Both the position numbers and the translations under genes were made by a program. A stretch of 36,118 nucleotides of DNA from a virus, in the IMG/VR virus record IMGVR_UViG_3300049489_000116, positions 1 through 36,118 of that record; one strand, written 5' to 3'. This document shows, one piece after another, positions 25,637-36,118 of the stretch; within the stretch, counting starts at the first letter, position 1, and every line of letters starts with the position of its first letter. The notes below the pieces were generated by a model. The model was given only the letters and a program-made list of their open reading frames with translations, searched no databases and was not told the origin of the DNA.

Positions 25637-25878
25637 CCCTTGCCTCCCTTGTAACTCTTTGGCACCACCGACCTGATGGGCTCTGTCAGGTAGTCGTGGT
25701 ATGTGTCTAGCCGATCATACTCAGACCTCTGTGTGTGATTGTGTGGACCCTTTGTGAAGACCTTGACAACCTCCGTGGACCCACACTCCGGGCACACGGG
25801 GGTTTCGTCGTTGTTGAGCCACAGCTCTGACGTCACTGAGCAAGCTCCGCAGTAGTAGTCAAACACCTTTATACTCAC
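25633..25878 (-). CDS. FmdB-like zinc-ribbon protein
   Basis: This 81-residue protein carries a CxxC...CxxC zinc ribbon at C10, C13, C29 and C32 in the style of the FmdB-type small regulatory protein family (FDYYCGAC, then CPECGS). The rest is short and charged. It starts with GTG after GGGAGG, and is the last clear gene of the replication arm. The molecular role of this family is poorly known; in phages such proteins are often assumed to be regulators or adaptors. No other domain is visible. Confidence 0.75.
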   Translation of the reverse strand: MSIKVFDYYCGACSVTSELWLNNDETPVCPECGSTEVVKVFTKGPHNHTQRSEYDRLDTYHDYLTEPIRSVVPKSYKGGKG

Positions 25879-25908
25879 TCACTGACCTCCCATCAAGCTC
25901 ATACGCGA

Positions 25909-26730
25909 TCATAGTCCGCACATCCCCTCGCACTCCTCAGAGAATGGATCCCCATCTCCAGCGCGCTCGGCGGGAACGAGCCTCACCTCTGCCAGTGGCT
26001 TGAGGCTTCGATGCAGGTACAGCCTCTGAGTTGTTCCCCTCACCCCACCACGAATCAACTCGTCCATCTCCACAGACTGCGCCCACGACTCGGGGTCGTT
26101 TATCTTCTGCTCCAGCCACTGGCTGTCGGAGTGATAGGGGCACCAGATGCATGCGCTCTTGCTTGGTGCTGGGTAACCTTTGTCAGCCATCCACTTCAGG
26201 CAGTCGTTTCTACTCATGCGCTTTTCGATCAGCGGGTAACGGTACTCGGTCCACCTGTCCACACCTTTGCGGGCACGTTGTATCTCGTCGGAGCTAATCC
26301 CCTGCCACATGACCACGGCTATGTACTCTGGTCCGTGCTTCCACTTTGCTAGTCCTAGTATTTCACGAGTTTTTTTGATTATGGGAAGGATCTTGTACTC
26401 ATTAGTGCACTGCCGCTTTAGTTGACCTCTCCCCTTGCCGCCGGTCCTCTCAGTGAAAAACGGTGCCCCAGCGAAGCGCCCACCAACAACACTGTCAACT
26501 ATATTCTGTTTAAGTCCATCCTTCCACATCACCCGATGAACCGGGAACGGCAGTTGCTTCTCCAGCCAATCCAACCACTCATAGATTGCTCTCGGCTCGG
26601 CCCCAGTGTCGGCAAAGATCGCATGGTCAGGCATCGGCGTGATCTCCCCGTGCGCCGCCATCAGTGCCATCGTCGATGACTGGACACCGGCCCCGAGGCT
26701 TATAATGTGCAGTGGTACATTAGCCGTCAC
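25909..26730 (-). CDS. PP-loop ATPase of the PAPS-reductase-like superfamily
   Basis: This 273-residue protein starts with a P-loop-like SLGAGVQSS (residues 11-19) that corresponds to the PP-loop of adenine-nucleotide alpha-hydrolases, then has DTGAEP and a Cys-rich part: C108, C177, and SACIWCPYH with C194 and C197. Phages often carry such proteins under the name phosphoadenosine phosphosulfate reductase, but real sulfate reduction is unlikely in a phage; activation of a nucleotide or tRNA sulfur/amide transfer is equally possible. The chosen start is GTG at 26730, overlapping the previous stop (GTGA). A longer frame upstream reads through the neighbouring gene and adds a poorly conserved-looking prefix. 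Biochemical substrate is unknown. Confidence 0.7.
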   Translation of the reverse strand: MTANVPLHIISLGAGVQSSTMALMAAHGEITPMPDHAIFADTGAEPRAIYEWLDWLEKQLPFPVHRVMWKDGLKQNIVDSVVGGRFAGAPFFTERTGGKGRGQLKRQCTNEYKILPIIKKTREILGLAKWKHGPEYIAVVMWQGISSDEIQRARKGVDRWTEYRYPLIEKRMSRNDCLKWMADKGYPAPSKSACIWCPYHSDSQWLEQKINDPESWAQSVEMDELIRGGVRGTTQRLYLHRSLKPLAEVRLVPAERAGDGDPFSEECEGMCGL

Positions 26731-26909
26731 TTGTCGGTACCCACATCCCACTTGGCCGCCTTGCTCTGGGCGTCCTTCAGCACATCCCACACGGACTTGT
26801 CTGCCCCCTCACACAGACGCTTGACGTACTCTGTGGCCGCTGGTGTGCCCTCTGCCAGTAGCTTACTCTTCAGGATCTTGACCGCCCTGTTCGCCATCTT
26901 CGGATGCAT
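26727..26909 (-). CDS. Small helical protein, function unknown
   Basis: This 60-residue protein is charged and helical (ANRAVKILKSKLLAEGTPAA), with no cysteine pair or membrane segment. Its ATG has a strong ribosome binding site (AGGAGG) and it overlaps the PP-loop gene by four bases (GTGA), so both are likely co-translated. No family is recognised; it may be a partner of the PP-loop protein because of the coupling, but that is only a context argument. Confidence 0.65.
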   Translation of the reverse strand: MHPKMANRAVKILKSKLLAEGTPAATEYVKRLCEGADKSVWDVLKDAQSKAAKWDVGTDK

Positions 26910-26913
26910 AGCC

Positions 26914-27678
26914 CTATCCTCCTCGTGCTGTCTTGCGCAGCTTCCCTAGTGATATCGGAGACCAGTTGAATCTCCCAGTCTTGTAGTGGTCGATCAGTAC
27001 TATACCGCGCCAGTAAGAAGTGAGGCTACCAAGAGCGTAATCGTCAATATGTTCAAAGAAGCAGCCCACATTAAGCGCCTGGTTAAGATGCGCGGAGCCA
27101 GTTCTATGAACGGCCACTGACGCAAGTTTGTGCGTGTGACCAAAGACAACGCTATGTTGATAAATGCTGAGAGCGCGCTTACAAGCAGTGTCACCTCCAA
27201 CAGGGTTTCCGGCTTCATTAATTGGTACATGTGTAAAATATACTCCTCTGTGTACATAGTGCTCCTTGTACGGAACGTGAGTCCAGTGCTCTATGTCCAA
27301 GTCCTTGCGGTAATCCACGGCCCCGTCAAACAGGGGCTGTATATCCAGGTACCTCCACAGCCTGTCCTCGTGGTTGCCCTCAGTGAGGATGTAGTCGTCG
27401 CAGTGCTTCCCTCCGTTGTCCATCATCAGCCCAAGGAACCGCTTACCGGCATCTATGTCTTTCTGGTATCGCCTGCCCTCCATCTTTTTACGCTTGTCCT
27501 TGTCCCACGCTGACAGTGAGTCGAAGGTAAGCAAGTCACCAATGAACACCACACGATTGGGGCGCAGATCGGCAATGGCGTGACCTAGCAGCTTACCGCG
27601 GCTTAGGTTCTGCCCAGCAGATATGTGCACATCCCCAACCACCAGGGTCAGGTCATCAGACTTCAATAACTCATTCAT
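26914..27678 (-). CDS. Calcineurin-like metallophosphoesterase
   Basis: This 254-residue enzyme shows the full metal-binding motif set: GDVH at residues 15-18, IGDLLTFD (D48), GNHED at 101-105, and GHTH at about 180-183. These define a two-metal phosphoesterase; possible substrates include cyclic nucleotides, nucleotide diphosphates, or nucleic acid ends. The start chosen is the ATG at 27678, which overlaps the upstream hydrolase gene by eight bases; the longer open frame extends out of frame into that gene. It sits among DNA-recycling genes, so a nucleic acid or nucleotide substrate is more likely than a protein phosphatase role, but this is inference. Confidence 0.88.
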   Translation of the reverse strand: MNELLKSDDLTLVVGDVHISAGQNLSRGKLLGHAIADLRPNRVVFIGDLLTFDSLSAWDKDKRKKMEGRRYQKDIDAGKRFLGLMMDNGGKHCDDYILTEGNHEDRLWRYLDIQPLFDGAVDYRKDLDIEHWTHVPYKEHYVHRGVYFTHVPINEAGNPVGGDTACKRALSIYQHSVVFGHTHKLASVAVHRTGSAHLNQALNVGCFFEHIDDYALGSLTSYWRGIVLIDHYKTGRFNWSPISLGKLRKTARGG

Positions 27679-28051
27679 TTTCGAACGGCAGCTCTGGGTT
27701 AAACCAACGGGTGGGGCGGTCATCCCCCTCCCGGTACGACTTGGCGTAGTGCTCCAGCATGAGCAAGTTCGCCATTGCGTGCCCGAGGTGCGACTTACCA
27801 GACTCCGGGTCGTTGTCGTAGCCAGCGTACCACGCTGACAGGTGCCTGAGTATGCATCCGTACGGCACACTCCACCTCATACCCTTGGCCCAATTCCACT
27901 CCGCATACTTGTCAGCCCCATACTCAAACACGTCAGCCGCACTAGTCAACAGGTGCAACGGCACCAGATCAAACCTGGTCTTGCCGGCATTGGCCCTAGC
28001 GCCGGAGCCCCGCTCATTGGAGTTGATGTCCCCTATCGCGTAGTCAACCAC
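27671..28051 (-). CDS. MazZ-like dATP/dGTP diphosphohydrolase (DUF5664-type)
   Basis: This 126-residue protein belongs to the all-alpha MazG-like NTP pyrophosphohydrolases of the type now named dATP/dGTP diphosphohydrolase. Characteristic segments are GKTRFDLVPLHLL, VFEYGADKYAEWNWAKGMRW and ESGKSHLGHAMANLLML. Related phage enzymes (MazZ) remove dATP and dGTP so that 2-aminoadenine can replace adenine, but the partner enzymes PurZ and DatZ were not seen here. The GTG at 28051 is chosen because the longer frame overlaps the endonuclease gene almost entirely; the ribosome binding site is weak (GAAAGAG). It overlaps the endonuclease gene by 19 bases. Confidence 0.78.
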   Translation of the reverse strand: MVDYAIGDINSNERGSGARANAGKTRFDLVPLHLLTSAADVFEYGADKYAEWNWAKGMRWSVPYGCILRHLSAWYAGYDNDPESGKSHLGHAMANLLMLEHYAKSYREGDDRPTRWFNPELPFENE

Positions 28052-28437
28052 TCTTTCGGAACTGCTCCCATCGCGAACGGTATGTTGTGTTGGCGACACC
28101 ACATTGAGTACGTAGTTTCCGACACCGGGCTCAGGCGGTTGTCTCTTTGCAGGATCATGCGCAAATCCACCTCGGGGTTTTGTGCTATAACCGACAGAAT
28201 CTTGGTTCGATCGTCGCTCGTGAACCGACCCTTGCTCTCCAAAAGAATCCGCGTCCCCGGTATACGGAAATCCGGTGTATACCATCTCGGTTTTGGTTGC
28301 CATCTAAGCTTCTCCTCTTCTGGTTCATACTCCAACAGAACGCCAGTCTCAGCCAAGGCTCGGTCACTCAGATACTTCTCAAACCCTGATCTGAATCCGG
28401 CCTTTTTGGCCTCGGCTCGCTTACGGTGTCGCGCCAT
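28033..28437 (-). CDS. Endonuclease I, T7 gp3-type Holliday-junction resolvase
   Basis: This 134-residue enzyme should resolve branched DNA during packaging and help break down host DNA. Residues equivalent to the T7 catalytic site are all present: E20 in AGFRSGFEKYL, D56 in YTPDF, and E67 and K69 in LLESKG (T7 E20, D55, E65, K67). The N terminus is basic. The start is ATG at 28437 after a GAGGGAGT ribosome binding site; a longer frame upstream encodes a cysteine-rich prefix that lies in the neighbouring gene and is rejected. It overlaps the membrane-protein gene upstream by 17 bases. Confidence 0.93.
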   Translation of the reverse strand: MARHRKRAEAKKAGFRSGFEKYLSDRALAETGVLLEYEPEEEKLRWQPKPRWYTPDFRIPGTRILLESKGRFTSDDRTKILSVIAQNPEVDLRMILQRDNRLSPVSETTYSMWCRQHNIPFAMGAVPKEWLTTR

Positions 28438-28738
28438 CTTGCACTCCCTCAGTTGTTCCCGCGCACTCTGCTGGCGGGGTTTTTGTGTGATACCTCTTGT
28501 GCAACAGCATGGCGCACAATGCTCCACTCCCCGCCGCCGCTCCTATCGTCAACGCCAGGGGGAGAGTGAATCCGAGCGCAGCCACCTTGGCAATCACGTA
28601 AACCTCCGTGAGAGCAAGTCCGAAGCTGGTGGGAAGCACCATACCGTAGTTATCGAACGCCACGTTCCTCTGCTGATAAGCCTTAAGAAATATGAACAAA
28701 AAGTTCGCTCCAGCAACAGTTAGGTACGTTGTTAACAT
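28421..28738 (-). CDS. Small phage membrane protein, function unknown
   Basis: This 105-residue protein has two or three membrane segments at about 3-20, 33-55 and 57-80, with a KAYQQRNVAFDNY segment between the first two, and a short basic/Cys-containing tail. I recall a similar small membrane protein in other podoviruses, next to exonuclease and endonuclease genes, but no function is known to me. The start is ATG at 28738 with GGGAGG nine bases upstream; it overlaps the exonuclease stop by seven bases. A role in envelope takeover or DNA-membrane tethering is speculative. Confidence 0.72.
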   Translation of the reverse strand: MLTTYLTVAGANFLFIFLKAYQQRNVAFDNYGMVLPTSFGLALTEVYVIAKVAALGFTLPLALTIGAAAGSGALCAMLLHKRYHTKTPPAECAGTTEGVQDGATP

Positions 28739-29565
28739 CCTTCTGGCACCTCCCACCATTGGTCTGGCTCACGCCTGATCCAGATCAGTCGTCCCATTTC
28801 AGTCATCACGTCTCGCCATGCATCTCCGTAGTGTCTTCGGTACACGTCAGCCACTAACCTAGGCCAGTCCTCCTCTCCACCGTTAGCGAGCACCTTAGCG
28901 GCACCTGCTGGACCCATTCCTGGTATCCCTTGTATGTTGTCGGTAGAGTCACCAGTCAACAGTTGCCGCCAGAACGTCTTCTCTGCCTCCTCCCTGTCCA
29001 CGTAGTACGCAACGTTCTTGGCGAAGTTGTAGTGCAGCCCTGGAATCATGTTCAAGTCTTTGTCCAGCGAAGCTATGACCGAAGATTCAGGATCGCGCAC
29101 CCACATCTTGTAGTGCTGTATTCCGATGTAGTCGTCTGCCTCCTCTCCGTCACTTACAACAGAGTTGTAGCGAGCCATCAGATAGTCCTTGATGGCGCGC
29201 TCGTGAGTTGGGCGGTGAGCATCGTCCCGGTTACCTTTATACGGCTTGGTCTTCGCAACATGATACCGGAAGTTGTCAGAGCCCGACAAGCACACAGTGA
29301 TCTCGTCTCTCGTGACTTGCAATGTTTCCATCAACGAGTAGAACATAAGCTTTACTGTGTGCAAGGCGTTCTCGACAGGCTCAACTTCGCGGCACGACTC
29401 CAGTTCCGCAGGATCAACCCTGTGCTCTGACATGTACGCGCTTGCCTCTTTCTTGTACTGAAAGCGCAGTGGCTCCCCTGTGGGGGATCGCAGATAGTAC
29501 GCAGTCTTCTCAGCTGCGAACCCAGCGCGAAACACTACAATGTCTCCGTCCAACCACACGTGCAC
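28732..29565 (-). CDS. 5'-3' exonuclease (T7 gp6/flap-nuclease family)
   Basis: This 277-residue nuclease should remove RNA primers and degrade host DNA. Acidic metal ligands are visible in order: D6 and D8 at the N terminus, EEADD (141-145), SLDKD (166-170) and GDSTDN (205-210), followed by the helix-three-turn-helix IPGMGPAGAAKVL. A basic KPYKGNR lies at 107-113. The GTG start at 29565 has GAGGAG nine bases upstream; the next in-frame GTG is two codons later. It follows the SSB gene by six bases. Motif order and length agree with phage flap-nuclease proteins. Confidence 0.93.
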   Translation of the reverse strand: MHVWLDGDIVVFRAGFAAEKTAYYLRSPTGEPLRFQYKKEASAYMSEHRVDPAELESCREVEPVENALHTVKLMFYSLMETLQVTRDEITVCLSGSDNFRYHVAKTKPYKGNRDDAHRPTHERAIKDYLMARYNSVVSDGEEADDYIGIQHYKMWVRDPESSVIASLDKDLNMIPGLHYNFAKNVAYYVDREEAEKTFWRQLLTGDSTDNIQGIPGMGPAGAAKVLANGGEEDWPRLVADVYRRHYGDAWRDVMTEMGRLIWIRREPDQWWEVPEGC

Positions 29566-32344: not shown

Positions 32345-33565
32345 CTACTGCGCTCCTCTGATCCTGTTGTACGCCACCTCGACCGTCACTGGAATGATTG
32401 CATGACTGCCGCTACGTTTGTTTTTGCATAGTGTCAGTACCCTCCTGTTAGCTTCCAAACTTTGCACACTGGCACCAATGCCTATCATCACGTCAGCCTG
32501 TGCCGGGATGCCTGTGTTGCTGTAGTCCACATCCCCCTTGTCCAGCACGTCCTTGTTCGACGCACTGTCCCCAGCTTGCGTCACAGATAGCACCACTACA
32601 CGATAGCGTTTAGCTATGTTGCGGGCGGCTGTGGCAGCTTTCTCCAACTTTACGGTATAGTTCTGTTCACCAAGGTCGAGGTTACGCAACTGATCCAGCA
32701 CCACCACATCCGGCTTGTACTCCCTTACCAGTGATTCTATCACAGGAGGAGCGCCTGGGCTTAGCGGAGCGAAGATGATGTTGTCGTACCCGCGCTCTCG
32801 GGCCAGCTTCTCGGCACGGGATGGGTCGGCTTCTATCTCAGCTATTGTCATGCCGGATAACCTGCCAACCGTGCGCATAATCAAGTCCTCGACCGGCTCC
32901 TCGTTCCCAACGTACAGCACAGTAAGTCCTGCCTTGAGGAACCCAGACACTGCATTAATCACGAACATGGTCTTGCCAATCTCAGGCTGAGCAAACACAA
33001 TCACGTGATGCCCCCTGCGCAACCCTCCCCGCAGGTGATCATTCAACGCCCTAGGCAGTATCGGTATCAGCCCCTCCTCCCGTTCCTTGGCCACTAGCTC
33101 GGACAAGTCAGCACCGCGCATCACTGGTATCGTCTTCACTACCGCGTCAGAGCTGGCCGCTGCTGCAGCCACTGACCAACGCTGATAGTCAGCGAGCAGC
33201 GCATCAATGTCCGTACTACGACTGCCAAGCAAAGCGCTGGCCAGCTTGTTGCCAGCTACCTCTTTCCGCATGTGCAGCAAGTCAGACACTACGTTGGGTG
33301 GCGATACTGTCTCAGCCGCAAGCCCCGCAATCAACTCGCTAAACAGTTTCTTGTGCTTAGGGTTGCTGTACTTGCGAGACACACTGGCCGCCAGTATCTC
33401 GGGGTCCGTTACCTGGGCCGCCGAATCGTTGTTGTAATACTCAGTTACTGCGTCTAGTACTACCCTCCCCTGTTCACTGAAATCATCCGCTGCTCCCTCT
33501 TTTTGCACACTGTCCCACGCAGCTCTGGACTTTATGCACGCAACAAGAACTGTTCGCTCACTCAT
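32345..33565 (-). CDS. DnaB-like (RecA-fold) replicative helicase
   Basis: This 406-residue ATPase should unwind DNA ahead of the polymerase as a hexamer. The N-terminal 130 residues are helical, like DnaB N-domains. Walker A is AQPEIGKT at 192-199, with alanine where glycine normally starts the motif, Walker B is VVVLD at 287-291, and SVTQAGDS at 327-334 fits motif H3. Unlike T7, primase is a separate gene 1.7 kb upstream. The ATG has GGGGAG eight bases upstream. Sequence features and location beside primase and polymerase make the assignment secure. Confidence 0.92.
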   Translation of the reverse strand: MSERTVLVACIKSRAAWDSVQKEGAADDFSEQGRVVLDAVTEYYNNDSAAQVTDPEILAASVSRKYSNPKHKKLFSELIAGLAAETVSPPNVVSDLLHMRKEVAGNKLASALLGSRSTDIDALLADYQRWSVAAAAASSDAVVKTIPVMRGADLSELVAKEREEGLIPILPRALNDHLRGGLRRGHHVIVFAQPEIGKTMFVINAVSGFLKAGLTVLYVGNEEPVEDLIMRTVGRLSGMTIAEIEADPSRAEKLARERGYDNIIFAPLSPGAPPVIESLVREYKPDVVVLDQLRNLDLGEQNYTVKLEKAATAARNIAKRYRVVVLSVTQAGDSASNKDVLDKGDVDYSNTGIPAQADVMIGIGASVQSLEANRRVLTLCKNKRSGSHAIIPVTVEVAYNRIRGAQ

Positions 33566-33579
33566 TCACCACTCCCCAA

Positions 33580-33732
33580 TCATATGTCCCACTCTCGTCT
33601 AGCACACCTGCACGCCTCCTCTACAGTGAACACAGTCCGTGCACCTCATACCAACACCTCTGACTTCCTGACATCATCGTTCTCTAGTGTAACCTTAAAC
33701 AACTCTCTGCTTGCTGTGTGGTACACCACCAC
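33580..33732 (-). pseudogene. Possible small gene interrupted by an in-frame TGA
   Basis: Between the small zinc-ribbon gene and the helicase, one reading frame runs from GTG codons at 33732-33724 to a TGA at 33580-33582 and is broken only by a TGA at 33646-33648. The halves encode 28 and 21 residues. They read like coding sequence: YHTASRELFKVTLENDDV before the stop and RTVFTVEEACRCARREWDI after it. AGAGGG precedes the GTGs. It may be a decayed gene, a sequencing error, or two micro-genes. Nothing else fills this interval in an arm that is otherwise packed solid. Confidence 0.4.
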
Positions 33733-33913
33733 GCCCTCTTTCTGCTTTCAGTTGTAACTGGGCATCATTGACAACACTCTTAGTAAGCATTGTTGGAGTT
33801 ACCTCTAACAGCAGTGCAGCTAGAGCTACACGTCTGTCTTTGGGCCAGTTCCTGTATTGATATCCACAGTTACAGGGAGTACTCCAGCATTTCGGGCAAT
33901 CACTTAAAGCCAT
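33695..33913 (-). CDS. Small zinc-knuckle-like protein
   Basis: This 72-residue protein begins with a compact cysteine cluster (CPKCWSTPCNCGYQYRNW) that looks like a phage zinc knuckle, then a helical part (DRRVALAALLLEVTP). Similar CPKCWxTPCxCG starts occur in small phage proteins of unknown function. The ATG at 33913 overlaps the upstream stop (TAATG) and has GGGAGG. A longer frame adds 17 charged residues within the neighbouring gene and is rejected. Function may be nucleic acid or protein binding; it cannot be specified. Confidence 0.65.
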   Translation of the reverse strand: MALSDCPKCWSTPCNCGYQYRNWPKDRRVALAALLLEVTPTMLTKSVVNDAQLQLKAERGRGGVPHSKQRVV

Positions 33914-34113
33914 TACACACCTCCCGCGTTCTCCTTCCTGATCCTGCGTACCATCGCGTTCCATGCGCGGATGGCGTCGCGCTTTGTCTTGCGGATGGGG
34001 CCGTAAATGCTTGGGTCTTTACCCGCTCCCATCTGCACATATAAATACCCACCATCGGGACCGTCCCACCTTCCCGGCTTCCCCGGTATTCCGGCTAACC
34101 TTTCGATTTTCAT
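33913..34113 (-). CDS. Small Lar-like protein lacking zinc cysteines
   Basis: This 66-residue protein has a WDGPDGGYLYVQMG segment and ends in GPIRKTKRDAIRAWNAM (residues 38-54). That tail resembles the GPxxxTxxEAIxAWN end of the Lar restriction-alleviation family, but the cysteine pairs normal in that family are absent. Its ATG overlaps the upstream stop (ATGA) with GAGG before it. Anti-restriction activity is a family-based guess only. A second protein in the same cassette carries a similar tail. Confidence 0.6.
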   Translation of the reverse strand: MKIERLAGIPGKPGRWDGPDGGYLYVQMGAGKDPSIYGPIRKTKRDAIRAWNAMVRRIRKENAGGV

Positions 34114-34409
34114 TCCTCGATCCTCGGGTAGTATTTAGCTACAATCCGCACGAGCTTTGCCCGCTCCATGGGGCTGAAGCTTAGGTAGGGATATACTTTC
34201 GCCGCCCGGAGGAGTTCCTGTTCCAGAAGGCTACTGCGAATCGCTGGTGCGGCAAGTTTACAGATCACGATAAGACCCCCGACAGCAATTCCAACCCCTA
34301 GCAAGTCGCTGAAGTACCCCTTCAGTATCCACAGCAGCCCGAGGGTGTACGCACCCTCTCCTGCGGCAGAGAGTGTCTCAAGTATTAGTTTCAGTTCTTC
34401 GATGTTCAT
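34110..34409 (-). CDS. Small membrane protein, function unknown
   Basis: This 99-residue protein has a hydrophobic region at about 20-54 (YTLGLLWILK, then DLLGVGIAVGGLIVICKLAA), enough for one or two membrane passes, then a basic C-terminal helical part (MERAKLVRIVAKYYPRI). The ATG has GGGAG eight bases upstream. It is the only membrane protein in the small-gene cassette between primase and helicase. A role in membrane takeover or exclusion of other phages is possible but not shown. Confidence 0.65.
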   Translation of the reverse strand: MNIEELKLILETLSAAGEGAYTLGLLWILKGYFSDLLGVGIAVGGLIVICKLAAPAIRSSLLEQELLRAAKVYPYLSFSPMERAKLVRIVAKYYPRIEE

Positions 34410-34422
34410 TTCCGGTTCTCCC

Positions 34423-34701
34423 TCATGTTGTCTCCCTCAATATGTTGCTTGCAAAGTCTAGTGCAGCCTCCAGCTCAGCAATCCGCGCTGCTTGCCGCTC
34501 ATTCTCCGCCTGCAGGTCATGCAGCGGCTGCATCCAGGCGTTCCAGAGAGTGATGGCGTCCTCGGGGGAGCCGTAAATAGCCCCGGTGACTACTGGCATG
34601 TTTGGGTCATCACTCTCGGCAGATACCCAACAGCAGACAGGCGAGCCGCGCACTCGCGGCCCCACATCAGGCAGCAGCGGGCATTTGAGTATTTCGGTCA
34701 T
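34423..34701 (-). CDS. Small protein with Lar-like middle and coiled-coil tail
   Basis: This 92-residue protein has C7, C23 and C24, a GAIYGSPEDAITLWNAW segment at 40-56 that matches the Lar-type tail, and a charged coiled coil from about residue 62 (LQAENERQAARIAELEAAL). Compared with Lar proteins the zinc cysteines are reduced. The ATG at 34701 overlaps the upstream stop (ATGA) and has AGGAGG; the longer frame adds five residues (MGGGG) and is rejected. Possible restriction alleviation with an added oligomerisation helix is inference. Confidence 0.62.
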   Translation of the reverse strand: MTEILKCPLLPDVGPRVRGSPVCCWVSAESDDPNMPVVTGAIYGSPEDAITLWNAWMQPLHDLQAENERQAARIAELEAALDFASNILRETT

Positions 34702-34931
34702 GCCACCTCCTCCCACTTGTCGATGGCTCTGTAAACCGCTTCTAGGTGGTCAGGATCAGTTAATCGGCCACACACCAACCTTTCCGCCGCCTCCACCACG
34801 TCCAGCAGCGCGGCGTACTGGTTTGCTATAGGTTTACACGCAGAGAGCGCAACCAGAGGCTCAAGCTGATAATCTATCTGCTCCTCATATGCGGCAATCA
34901 ATAACTCGCGGGCTTGTTCGATCTTGCTCAT
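34698..34931 (-). CDS. Small helical protein, function unknown
   Basis: This 77-residue protein is helical and acidic (SKIEQARELLIAAYEEQIDY, then YAALLDVVEAAERLV). It contains two cysteines that are not paired. The ATG at 34931 overlaps the upstream stop (ATGA); the in-frame ATG nine bases earlier is possible. It is part of the tightly overlapping cassette after primase. No family is recognised. Confidence 0.58.
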   Translation of the reverse strand: MSKIEQARELLIAAYEEQIDYQLEPLVALSACKPIANQYAALLDVVEAAERLVCGRLTDPDHLEAVYRAIDKWEEVA

Positions 34932-35227
34932 TGCTTCCACTCCTCCACGGTCTCGACCTGCTCAATCCCGACCCAAATCTTCCTTCCATCGGCCTGATGC
35001 AGGTCGGCGTAGTGTTTGGCATCCTCTATGGCTTCACCAAGCGTATCAGCACGCCCCCCAACTAACTCCTCGTATATTTCTGCGTCCCGCACGCTGAAGC
35101 GGTAGTGAGCACAGTTTCGGTCCCTCACCGGCTCAGGCTTCGGGCCTGTGCAGGTTCTCTCGTCGTGGTGGTAGTGGATTCGCGCATCAATCCCACACTT
35201 GGGACAGGGAACATCATGGTTGCTCAT
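34928..35227 (-). CDS. Small zinc-binding protein, function unknown
   Basis: This 99-residue protein has an N-terminal CPKCG, HYHH and C26, C39 cluster that could bind zinc, then an acidic helical half (GRADTLGEAIEDAKHYADLH). The ATG overlaps the primase stop (ATGA). As the first gene after primase it is probably co-translated with it. It might be a replication accessory, host-protein binder or regulator; no family is recognised. Confidence 0.62.
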   Translation of the reverse strand: MSNHDVPCPKCGIDARIHYHHDERTCTGPKPEPVRDRNCAHYRFSVRDAEIYEELVGGRADTLGEAIEDAKHYADLHQADGRKIWVGIEQVETVEEWKQ

Positions 35228-36036
35228 TTCCTACACTCCTCGATGTAACTACACTGCTCAGCAAACGTTTGCACTTCATCCTCAGACATGTCCTTCAGGT
35301 CGTCGTTAAGTAACGCAATGTCCACGTTGTCGAACCAACCATCCAAAGAGTTACGTACCCACAGCGCCGTCTCGGCAGCATCGGGGTCTAGCGCTACGAC
35401 CACGTTACTGAACCTGGCCGACAAGGACATGATGTCCTCAGCAGCCAGCGTGGTCCCTAGCAGGGCCACCACTGACTTGTACATGGAAAGTCTGACGGCA
35501 CTCGGAATGTCCTCCACCAGAAACACCGTGTCATCCTCGTCCTTGGTGTACCAAGAGCTCTTGGTGACAGTGGGGGATATCAGGTGCGTGTGAGCCTTTG
35601 GTGTGCGCCCATCGTAGTACCGCAGGTGATAGCCCTTGATCGTCCGATCCTTGCTCATGATTGGGTAGGCGTACGCACCGTGCTCAGTTATGCGAACCCC
35701 AGAGGCAGCTACATGCTCCTCGGTAAACCCTACCCTACCCCTCAAAAACTCTACCTCACCACTGCACAACGAGAACATCGGCTCACTGAACGGGCGTACC
35801 GTGCTCCCAGGCTTCGTATAATCGCTTGTACGCGACGTTCCCACCCCAACCAAGGGTGCGTAGCCCTTAAACCCGCACGAAGCTCTGAAGCAATTATAAA
35901 CGTAGCCAGTGCCGTCCTTGTTGGTGACGCTGAGCTTGCTCTTGCCGCAGGCGGGGCACTCGGTGGTGACAGTAGCTCCTACGGGGATGCTCAGGAGCTT
36001 TATTTCTCCAGTGGCTGTTGTCTTGTGTGGTTTCAT
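35224..36036 (-). CDS. DNA primase (zinc finger and TOPRIM domain)
   Basis: This 270-residue protein should lay RNA primers for the phage polymerase. A zinc-binding motif lies at C27, C30, C49 and C54 (CPACGKSK ... CFRASCGF). The TOPRIM domain has E175 in FLVEDIPSA and D217/D219 in VVVALDPDA. T7 fuses primase and helicase in one gene; here they are separate proteins. The ATG at 36036 follows a GGGAGTAGG ribosome binding site and is the first gene after the A/T-only end. Motifs are complete for this family. Confidence 0.92.
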   Translation of the reverse strand: MKPHKTTATGEIKLLSIPVGATVTTECPACGKSKLSVTNKDGTGYVYNCFRASCGFKGYAPLVGVGTSRTSDYTKPGSTVRPFSEPMFSLCSGEVEFLRGRVGFTEEHVAASGVRITEHGAYAYPIMSKDRTIKGYHLRYYDGRTPKAHTHLISPTVTKSSWYTKDEDDTVFLVEDIPSAVRLSMYKSVVALLGTTLAAEDIMSLSARFSNVVVALDPDAAETALWVRNSLDGWFDNVDIALLNDDLKDMSEDEVQTFAEQCSYIEECRK

Positions 36037-36118
36037 ATCCTACTCCCGGTAGTATTATATAATATTATATATATATATTAATATATATAATTAATTAATA
36101 ATATATTATATATAAACC
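36037..36118 (-). promoter_or_regulatory. A/T-only right end with promoter-like hexamers and possible origin
   Basis: Bases 36053-36116 contain no G or C. On the minus strand, TATAAT hexamers occur at 36059-36054 and 36069-36064, 20-30 bases before the primase start; any -35 would lie further into the A/T block. CTAC/GTAG form a small hairpin next to the ribosome binding site. The block contains several AT palindromes, including TATATAATATTATATA and TTAATTAA. It is either an origin with divergent promoters, an assembly break in low-complexity sequence, or both. Confidence 0.45.

Follow-up and report, generated by a model that had tools for sequence, protein, structure and literature searches.

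The 1,658 b between the primase and helicase genes of this phage are filled by six minus-strand small ORFs (gA-gF). The first five, gA-gE, quite probably constitute a modular, horizontally exchanged accessory cassette that would be co-expressed with the replication genes and that includes a cysteine-less Lar-like family (gC and gE). A mobile accessory-gene cassette with such a family is the best-supported claim of the analysis. The small genes and a broken frame beside them had been noticed in an initial annotation, and both were confirmed.

The window, which is the whole stretch of DNA analysed, spans a single IMG/VR virus record (36,118 b, 55% GC) and comes from a bacterial virus, a Zobellviridae-like phage. 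By helicase, the cultivated phages closest to it are Stenotrophomonas phage StenR_269 and Vibrio phages, among them VpV262 and other Zobellviridae, with 30-37% identity. The primase (35224-36036) and the DnaB-like helicase (32345-33565) are both on the minus strand, and the order beyond the helicase on this strand is polymerase, exonuclease-like, endonuclease I, dATP/dGTP pyrophosphohydrolase-like and phosphoesterase genes. The dATP/dGTP pyrophosphohydrolase-like ORF (27671-28303, minus) runs on for about 90 codons, in a different frame, across the endonuclease I gene (28033-28527). This extension is also open in a close relative, G003, and the true start of the gene is probably farther downstream. 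The replication block also has a holin-like membrane protein (PHROG 7045; 28421-28759, minus), located away from the lysis genes, and ORFs resembling it are present in G003 and in a second relative, G002.

The small genes are tightly packed. The overlapping joints described earlier were found as ATGA at primase/gA, gA/gB, gB/gC and gD/gE and as TAATG at gE/gF, while gC and gD are spaced by 13 b. A purine-rich, Shine-Dalgarno-like stretch lies 5' of each start from gA to gF. The gene gA (34928-35227, minus) encodes 99 aa with a Cys/His-rich head (CPKCG...RIHYHH...C) and an unrelated C-terminal half; residues 1-32 share 66% identity with the corresponding head in G003, where it is fused to gB in one protein (L018:19620-19988). 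The 77-aa product of gB (34698-34931, minus) is probably helical and has the core QYAALLDVVEAA, which is strongly conserved in homologs that are 41-44% identical in G003 and in the unrelated phage G012. The gene gC (34423-34701, minus; 92 aa) encodes a Lar-like domain whose only remaining knuckle cysteine is the first one of the first knuckle, followed by a long helix. The product of gD (34110-34409, minus; 99 aa) has one hydrophobic, probably membrane, segment at about residues 36-54; the membrane segment claimed initially is thus a real hydrophobic stretch, with a maximum Kyte-Doolittle value of 2.3 over 19 residues. No homolog of gD was found in the loci of relatives or by tblastn of phage records. 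The hydrophobic segment of gD and the Cys/His head of gA are too unspecific for a function to be assigned. The gene gE (33913-34113, minus) encodes a cysteine-free Lar-like protein of 66 aa.

The sixth ORF, gF (33695-33913, minus; 72 aa), has an N-terminal Cys cluster and is a doubtful gene, since its GC3 of 0.37 is unlike the 0.60-0.66 of gA-gE and its C-terminal 14 or so residues run out of frame through gene debris. Of the six genes first listed as intact, gA-gE stand and gF is in doubt. No homolog of gF was found in the comparison with G003. None of the proteins gA-gF had a match above noise in Pfam, PHROGs or NCBIfam, and tblastn of gA-gE against 50,697 phage records returned nothing meaningful.

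The debris lies at the helicase edge of the cassette (33577..33739, minus) and was recognized by comparison with G003 (IMGVR_UViG_3300049489_000098), whose helicase is 90% identical. The primase-helicase junction of G003 contains a 215-aa RNA ligase with PF09414 above cut-off, a Cys-rich 92-aa ORF, an HNH/endonuclease VII-like ORF and a 53-aa ORF. The segment GVVVYHTASRELFKVTLENDD in the window is 65% identical to the C-terminus of this RNA ligase, and the region EEACRCARREWDI is 87% identical to the 53-aa gene, which precedes the helicase. Deletions have brought three pieces together in the broken frame: some 30 residues from the C-terminal end of the ligase, the opening residues of the 92-aa ORF and the final 13 of the 53-aa ORF. 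The PF09414 nucleotidyltransferase domain, intact in G003 and G002, is thus reduced in the window to about 30 C-terminal residues. In G002 and the near-identical G001 the primase and helicase overlap directly, and the G002 ligase is placed after the helicase. Taken with these layouts, the ligase debris indicates that the site underwent insertion and deletion and that the cassette replaced the ligase locus. The cassette would have entered the primase-helicase junction and taken the place of most of this locus. An assembly chimera is thought unlikely, as the insertion edge retains remnants of the ligase and of the 53-aa gene, both located before the helicase in G003, and a coupled ATGA overlap forms the opposite edge. 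A 139-aa protein near the RNA ligase of G002 (L075:7047-7466) reads like a 3'-5' exoribonuclease.

G003 also has homologs of the cassette in the same order, located about 6 kb beyond the helicase after phosphoesterase, 62-aa and FmdB-like genes. In this set the head of gA is joined to gB, gC is cut to its first 13-19 residues, a different 71-aa gene follows, and then gE. By tblastn of the G003 neighbours and the G003 layout, the corresponding end of the replication block in the window (25651..27870, minus) has the conserved phosphoesterase, 62-aa, PAPS-reductase-like and FmdB-like genes and no cassette. The PAPS-reductase-like protein (PHROG 424; 25909-26790, minus) lies between the 62-aa and FmdB-like genes and is absent from G003; a sulfur-transfer role is possible. 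A weak match to gC in G002 (L075:14951) was dropped because the opposite strand is the one expected to code and there is no plausible small gene.

The comparison of cassette content in near relatives, which the initial annotation had proposed, found the set absent or elsewhere. Its absence from near relatives suggests that the cassette is optional. The position inside the replication operon, the translational coupling and the Cys/His cluster of gA, as in other nucleic-acid-binding proteins, could suggest that the six proteins assist the primase and helicase. However, relatives that are 86-90% identical do not have the cassette between these two genes, and its genes are found elsewhere away from both. 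A role as replication accessories is largely contradicted and is considered highly improbable. The six genes are not strictly conserved among the relatives.

Parts of the cassette also occur in phages with another replication module. Besides the window, only three contigs carry gE: G003, G011 and G012. The last two have an unrelated replication module, with a different helicase-primase in G012. G012 carries gB, then an unrelated ORF, then gE, and G011 carries gE. The gE homologs are 53-58% identical to that of the window, and all retain the tail AIxAWNxMVRRIRK; across the four phages the head and tail are kept while the core varies. The gE genes of G012 and G003 are 93% identical in nucleotides. 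Short shared blocks surround the replaced interiors, for example 36 nt at 97% in gB and 66 nt at 91% in the gE tail. An IMG taxon prefix is common to G003 and G012, and another to G002 and G011, so the members of each pair probably come from the same metagenome. Both G003 and G012 have a second, diverged gE-like gene; the protein of G003 (IELKRLPGLEGEP...AWNAMIDRIIEECRK; L184:1497-1677, minus) is similar to that of G012. Scans of viral contigs with gC and with this second protein found no further genomes, and a search of genome contigs with the gE alignment gave no match. A protein with an 18-base repeat (QVYGDA/RVSGNA, hexapeptide-like; L177:1466-2269, with 23 copies, and L184:150-740), encoded close to the second gE-like gene, is common to two unrelated phages from one metagenome.

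The distribution of gB and gE shows horizontal exchange of small modules, in which the gB...gE framework would be retained and phages would trade the genes inside it as well as halves of proteins. The variable junctions, the relocation in G003 and the presence of gE and gB in unrelated phages together bear out one part of the initial reading, that this is an accessory island and not a set of conserved replication genes. The debris at the site, the truncated gC of G003, the doubtful gF and the endonuclease VII-type genes at the junction in relatives could also suggest neutral or selfish litter, in which recombination and homing endonucleases shuffle short ORFs whose function is under little selection. 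This is unlikely, because the ORFs are intact and coupled with core-like GC3, the core of gB is strongly conserved, and the head and tail of gE persist in four phages although its core varies.

Turnover at the primase-helicase junction extends well beyond these phages. About 140 loci were drawn, giving 80 distinct junctions, i.e. the window and 79 relatives. The gap in the relatives ranges from -50 to +3,416 b: the genes abut or overlap in 21, the gap is 1-100 b in 10, 100-500 b in 17 and 500-1,500 b in 23, and 8 have more. Inserts of other genes exceeding 500 b are thus present in 31 of the 79. Among 97 junction proteins, Pfam identified 9 phosphoesterases, 3 endonucleases VII and 2 RNA ligases; sigma factors, a cytosine methylase, a deformylase and a deaminase also occur. 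The recognised cargo consists in the main of phosphoesterases, endonuclease VII, RNA ligase and sigma factors, and not of known anti-defence genes. Unrelated genes of diverse families thus turn over between fixed anchors across the 80 junctions, as in a hotspot. Variation is as great in the gap between helicase and polymerase (median 664 b at 74 loci), and the two gaps are uncorrelated, which suggests that the operon takes cargo at several joints; the idea of a specially chosen insertion site was rejected on this ground. In T7 the primase and helicase are fused in one gene. The comparison with T7 made initially is uninformative, since the two genes are separate at 80 of 80 junctions, and a fusion broken by insertion was rejected for the same reason.

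The tail shared by gC and gE, first described as Lar-like, is real (BLASTP E = 2e-4; Smith-Waterman score reached by 1 of 3,000 shuffles). Of the 6,084 small ORFs in related loci, four contain the motif [DE]A[IVLA]xxWN, namely gC, gE, a gE ortholog and one genuine Lar. The zinc cysteines are absent as claimed: gE has no Cys and gC only C7, C23 and C24. The two CxxC knuckles of Lar (PF14354) are therefore missing from both, and the gE orthologs also lack both CxxC pairs. The HMM search proposed initially left gC and gE short of PF14354 (cut-off 28.6 bits), with no match by hmmscan at E up to 10 or in a six-frame search, where the only match in the window was the primase zinc ribbon at 13.4 bits. 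Because they fall short of the Pfam model and lack the zinc cysteines, gC and gE are classed as Lar-like, not as Lar.

The C-terminal T/S-xx-EAIxaWN helix of Lar is present in both proteins, with hhalign values of 91% for gE (15 columns) and 51% for gC (18 columns) against a set of 15 Lar-type sequences that favours the tail, having been gathered partly with the pattern KEEAIEAW. One of the 15 is a sequence taken to be that of Rac Lar. About 0.3% of 1,500 control ORFs, mostly CxxC proteins, reach that tail-helix similarity. A seven-sequence profile of the family (gE orthologs, second gE-like proteins and gC) aligned to the Lar zinc-ribbon proteins with a probability of 91.7%; the 54 aligned columns extend in register between the position of the first knuckle and WN. 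Its score was 34.2, versus at most 16.9 in 399 column shuffles, with most of the signal in about 15 residues. The family head alone gave 6%, which is weak, though above all 200 shuffles. A single-sequence AlphaFold2 model of gC has two strands and a long helix (beta-beta-helix; pLDDT 75), consistent with a Lar-like fold, and Foldseek of this model against viral structures returned nothing significant. The model of gE was poor (pLDDT 52) and was left out. Like the Lar family (PF14354; E. coli Rac Lar, with lambda Ral as functional analogue), gC and gE are small and have a beta region followed by a C-terminal [T/S]xxEAIxaWN helix. Unlike Lar, gE has no CxxC knuckles and gC only a partial one, both are under the Pfam cut-off, and gC continues into a long helix. 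The two proteins would thus have a beta-rich core and an EAIxaWN helix, with the zinc-binding cysteines lost.

Ral and Lar have been reported to stimulate methyltransferases, whereby phage DNA escapes restriction (PMC10286901; for Ral also PMC12707154). An anti-restriction island proper, in which gC and gE alleviate restriction by stimulating the host type I methyltransferase like lambda Ral and Rac Lar, is suggested by the tail and weak whole-domain similarity, the small size of the proteins, the exchange of gE between co-occurring phages and the reported stimulation by Ral and Lar (PMC10286901; PMC12707154). However, both zinc knuckles are lost, PF14354 is not reached, and the Lar label itself has seldom been tested; this reading is doubtful. 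A stronger version, in which gE and gC are an undescribed cysteine-free Lar-fold family acting as a diversifying counter-defence module against host modification and restriction and exchanged among co-occurring phages, seems quite unlikely.

Expression of the cassette appears to depend on the replication operon. The promoter scan found no minus-strand promoter or terminator inside the cassette; the only promoter-like match on this strand is an AT-rich block 5' of the primase (36037..36118, minus), and blocks of 81-83% AT lie at the same place in L002 and L004. The block of about 80 b is TATATA-like, partly palindromic and at the contig end, and is perhaps the reason the assembly ends there. 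It is a candidate promoter or replication origin and likely the promoter of the whole operon including the cassette. Since it is the sole such site, the cassette proteins are likely made together with the replication proteins. The cassette transcript is probably that of the replication operon and not a separate immediate-early island; without its own promoter, the cassette would be expressed from the AT-rich region.

The mobile accessory cassette could plausibly serve host takeover or counter restriction. Proteins that are small and exchanged between phages, and whose ends are conserved while their cores vary, would fit contact with changing partners. The most likely mode of action of gC and gE would be contact with proteins of a complex, belonging to the host or the phage, that processes DNA while replication is under way. 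The foremost specific idea is that, in the manner of Ral and Lar, they would enhance the action of the host methyltransferase on phage DNA, though its probability is low.

Cassettes between conserved phage genes are already known, and the P2/P4 phage hotspots hold 1-5 kb of high-turnover cargo between two conserved genes (PMC9122126). The window's lineage likewise has variable cargo between conserved anchors; unlike those hotspots, its site is in a replication operon with several variable joints, and the cassette has no recognised defence gene. VpV262-type phages and StenR_269 have similar podovirus modules, with a separate primase, a DnaB-like helicase and then polymerase, and small genes at the joints, but their cargo is unrelated to gA-gF. 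New here are the recognition of the ligase scar, the cassette's relocation among close relatives and the cysteine-less Lar-like family. A concrete accessory cassette has changed place between close relatives, and the scars reveal the order of events. The proteins gC and gE are small and easily expressed and would tell if the Lar fold can do without zinc. Should they prove to be anti-restriction proteins, current models miss similar cysteine-less relatives; if they are not, many 'Lar' labels given on the tail only deserve doubt.
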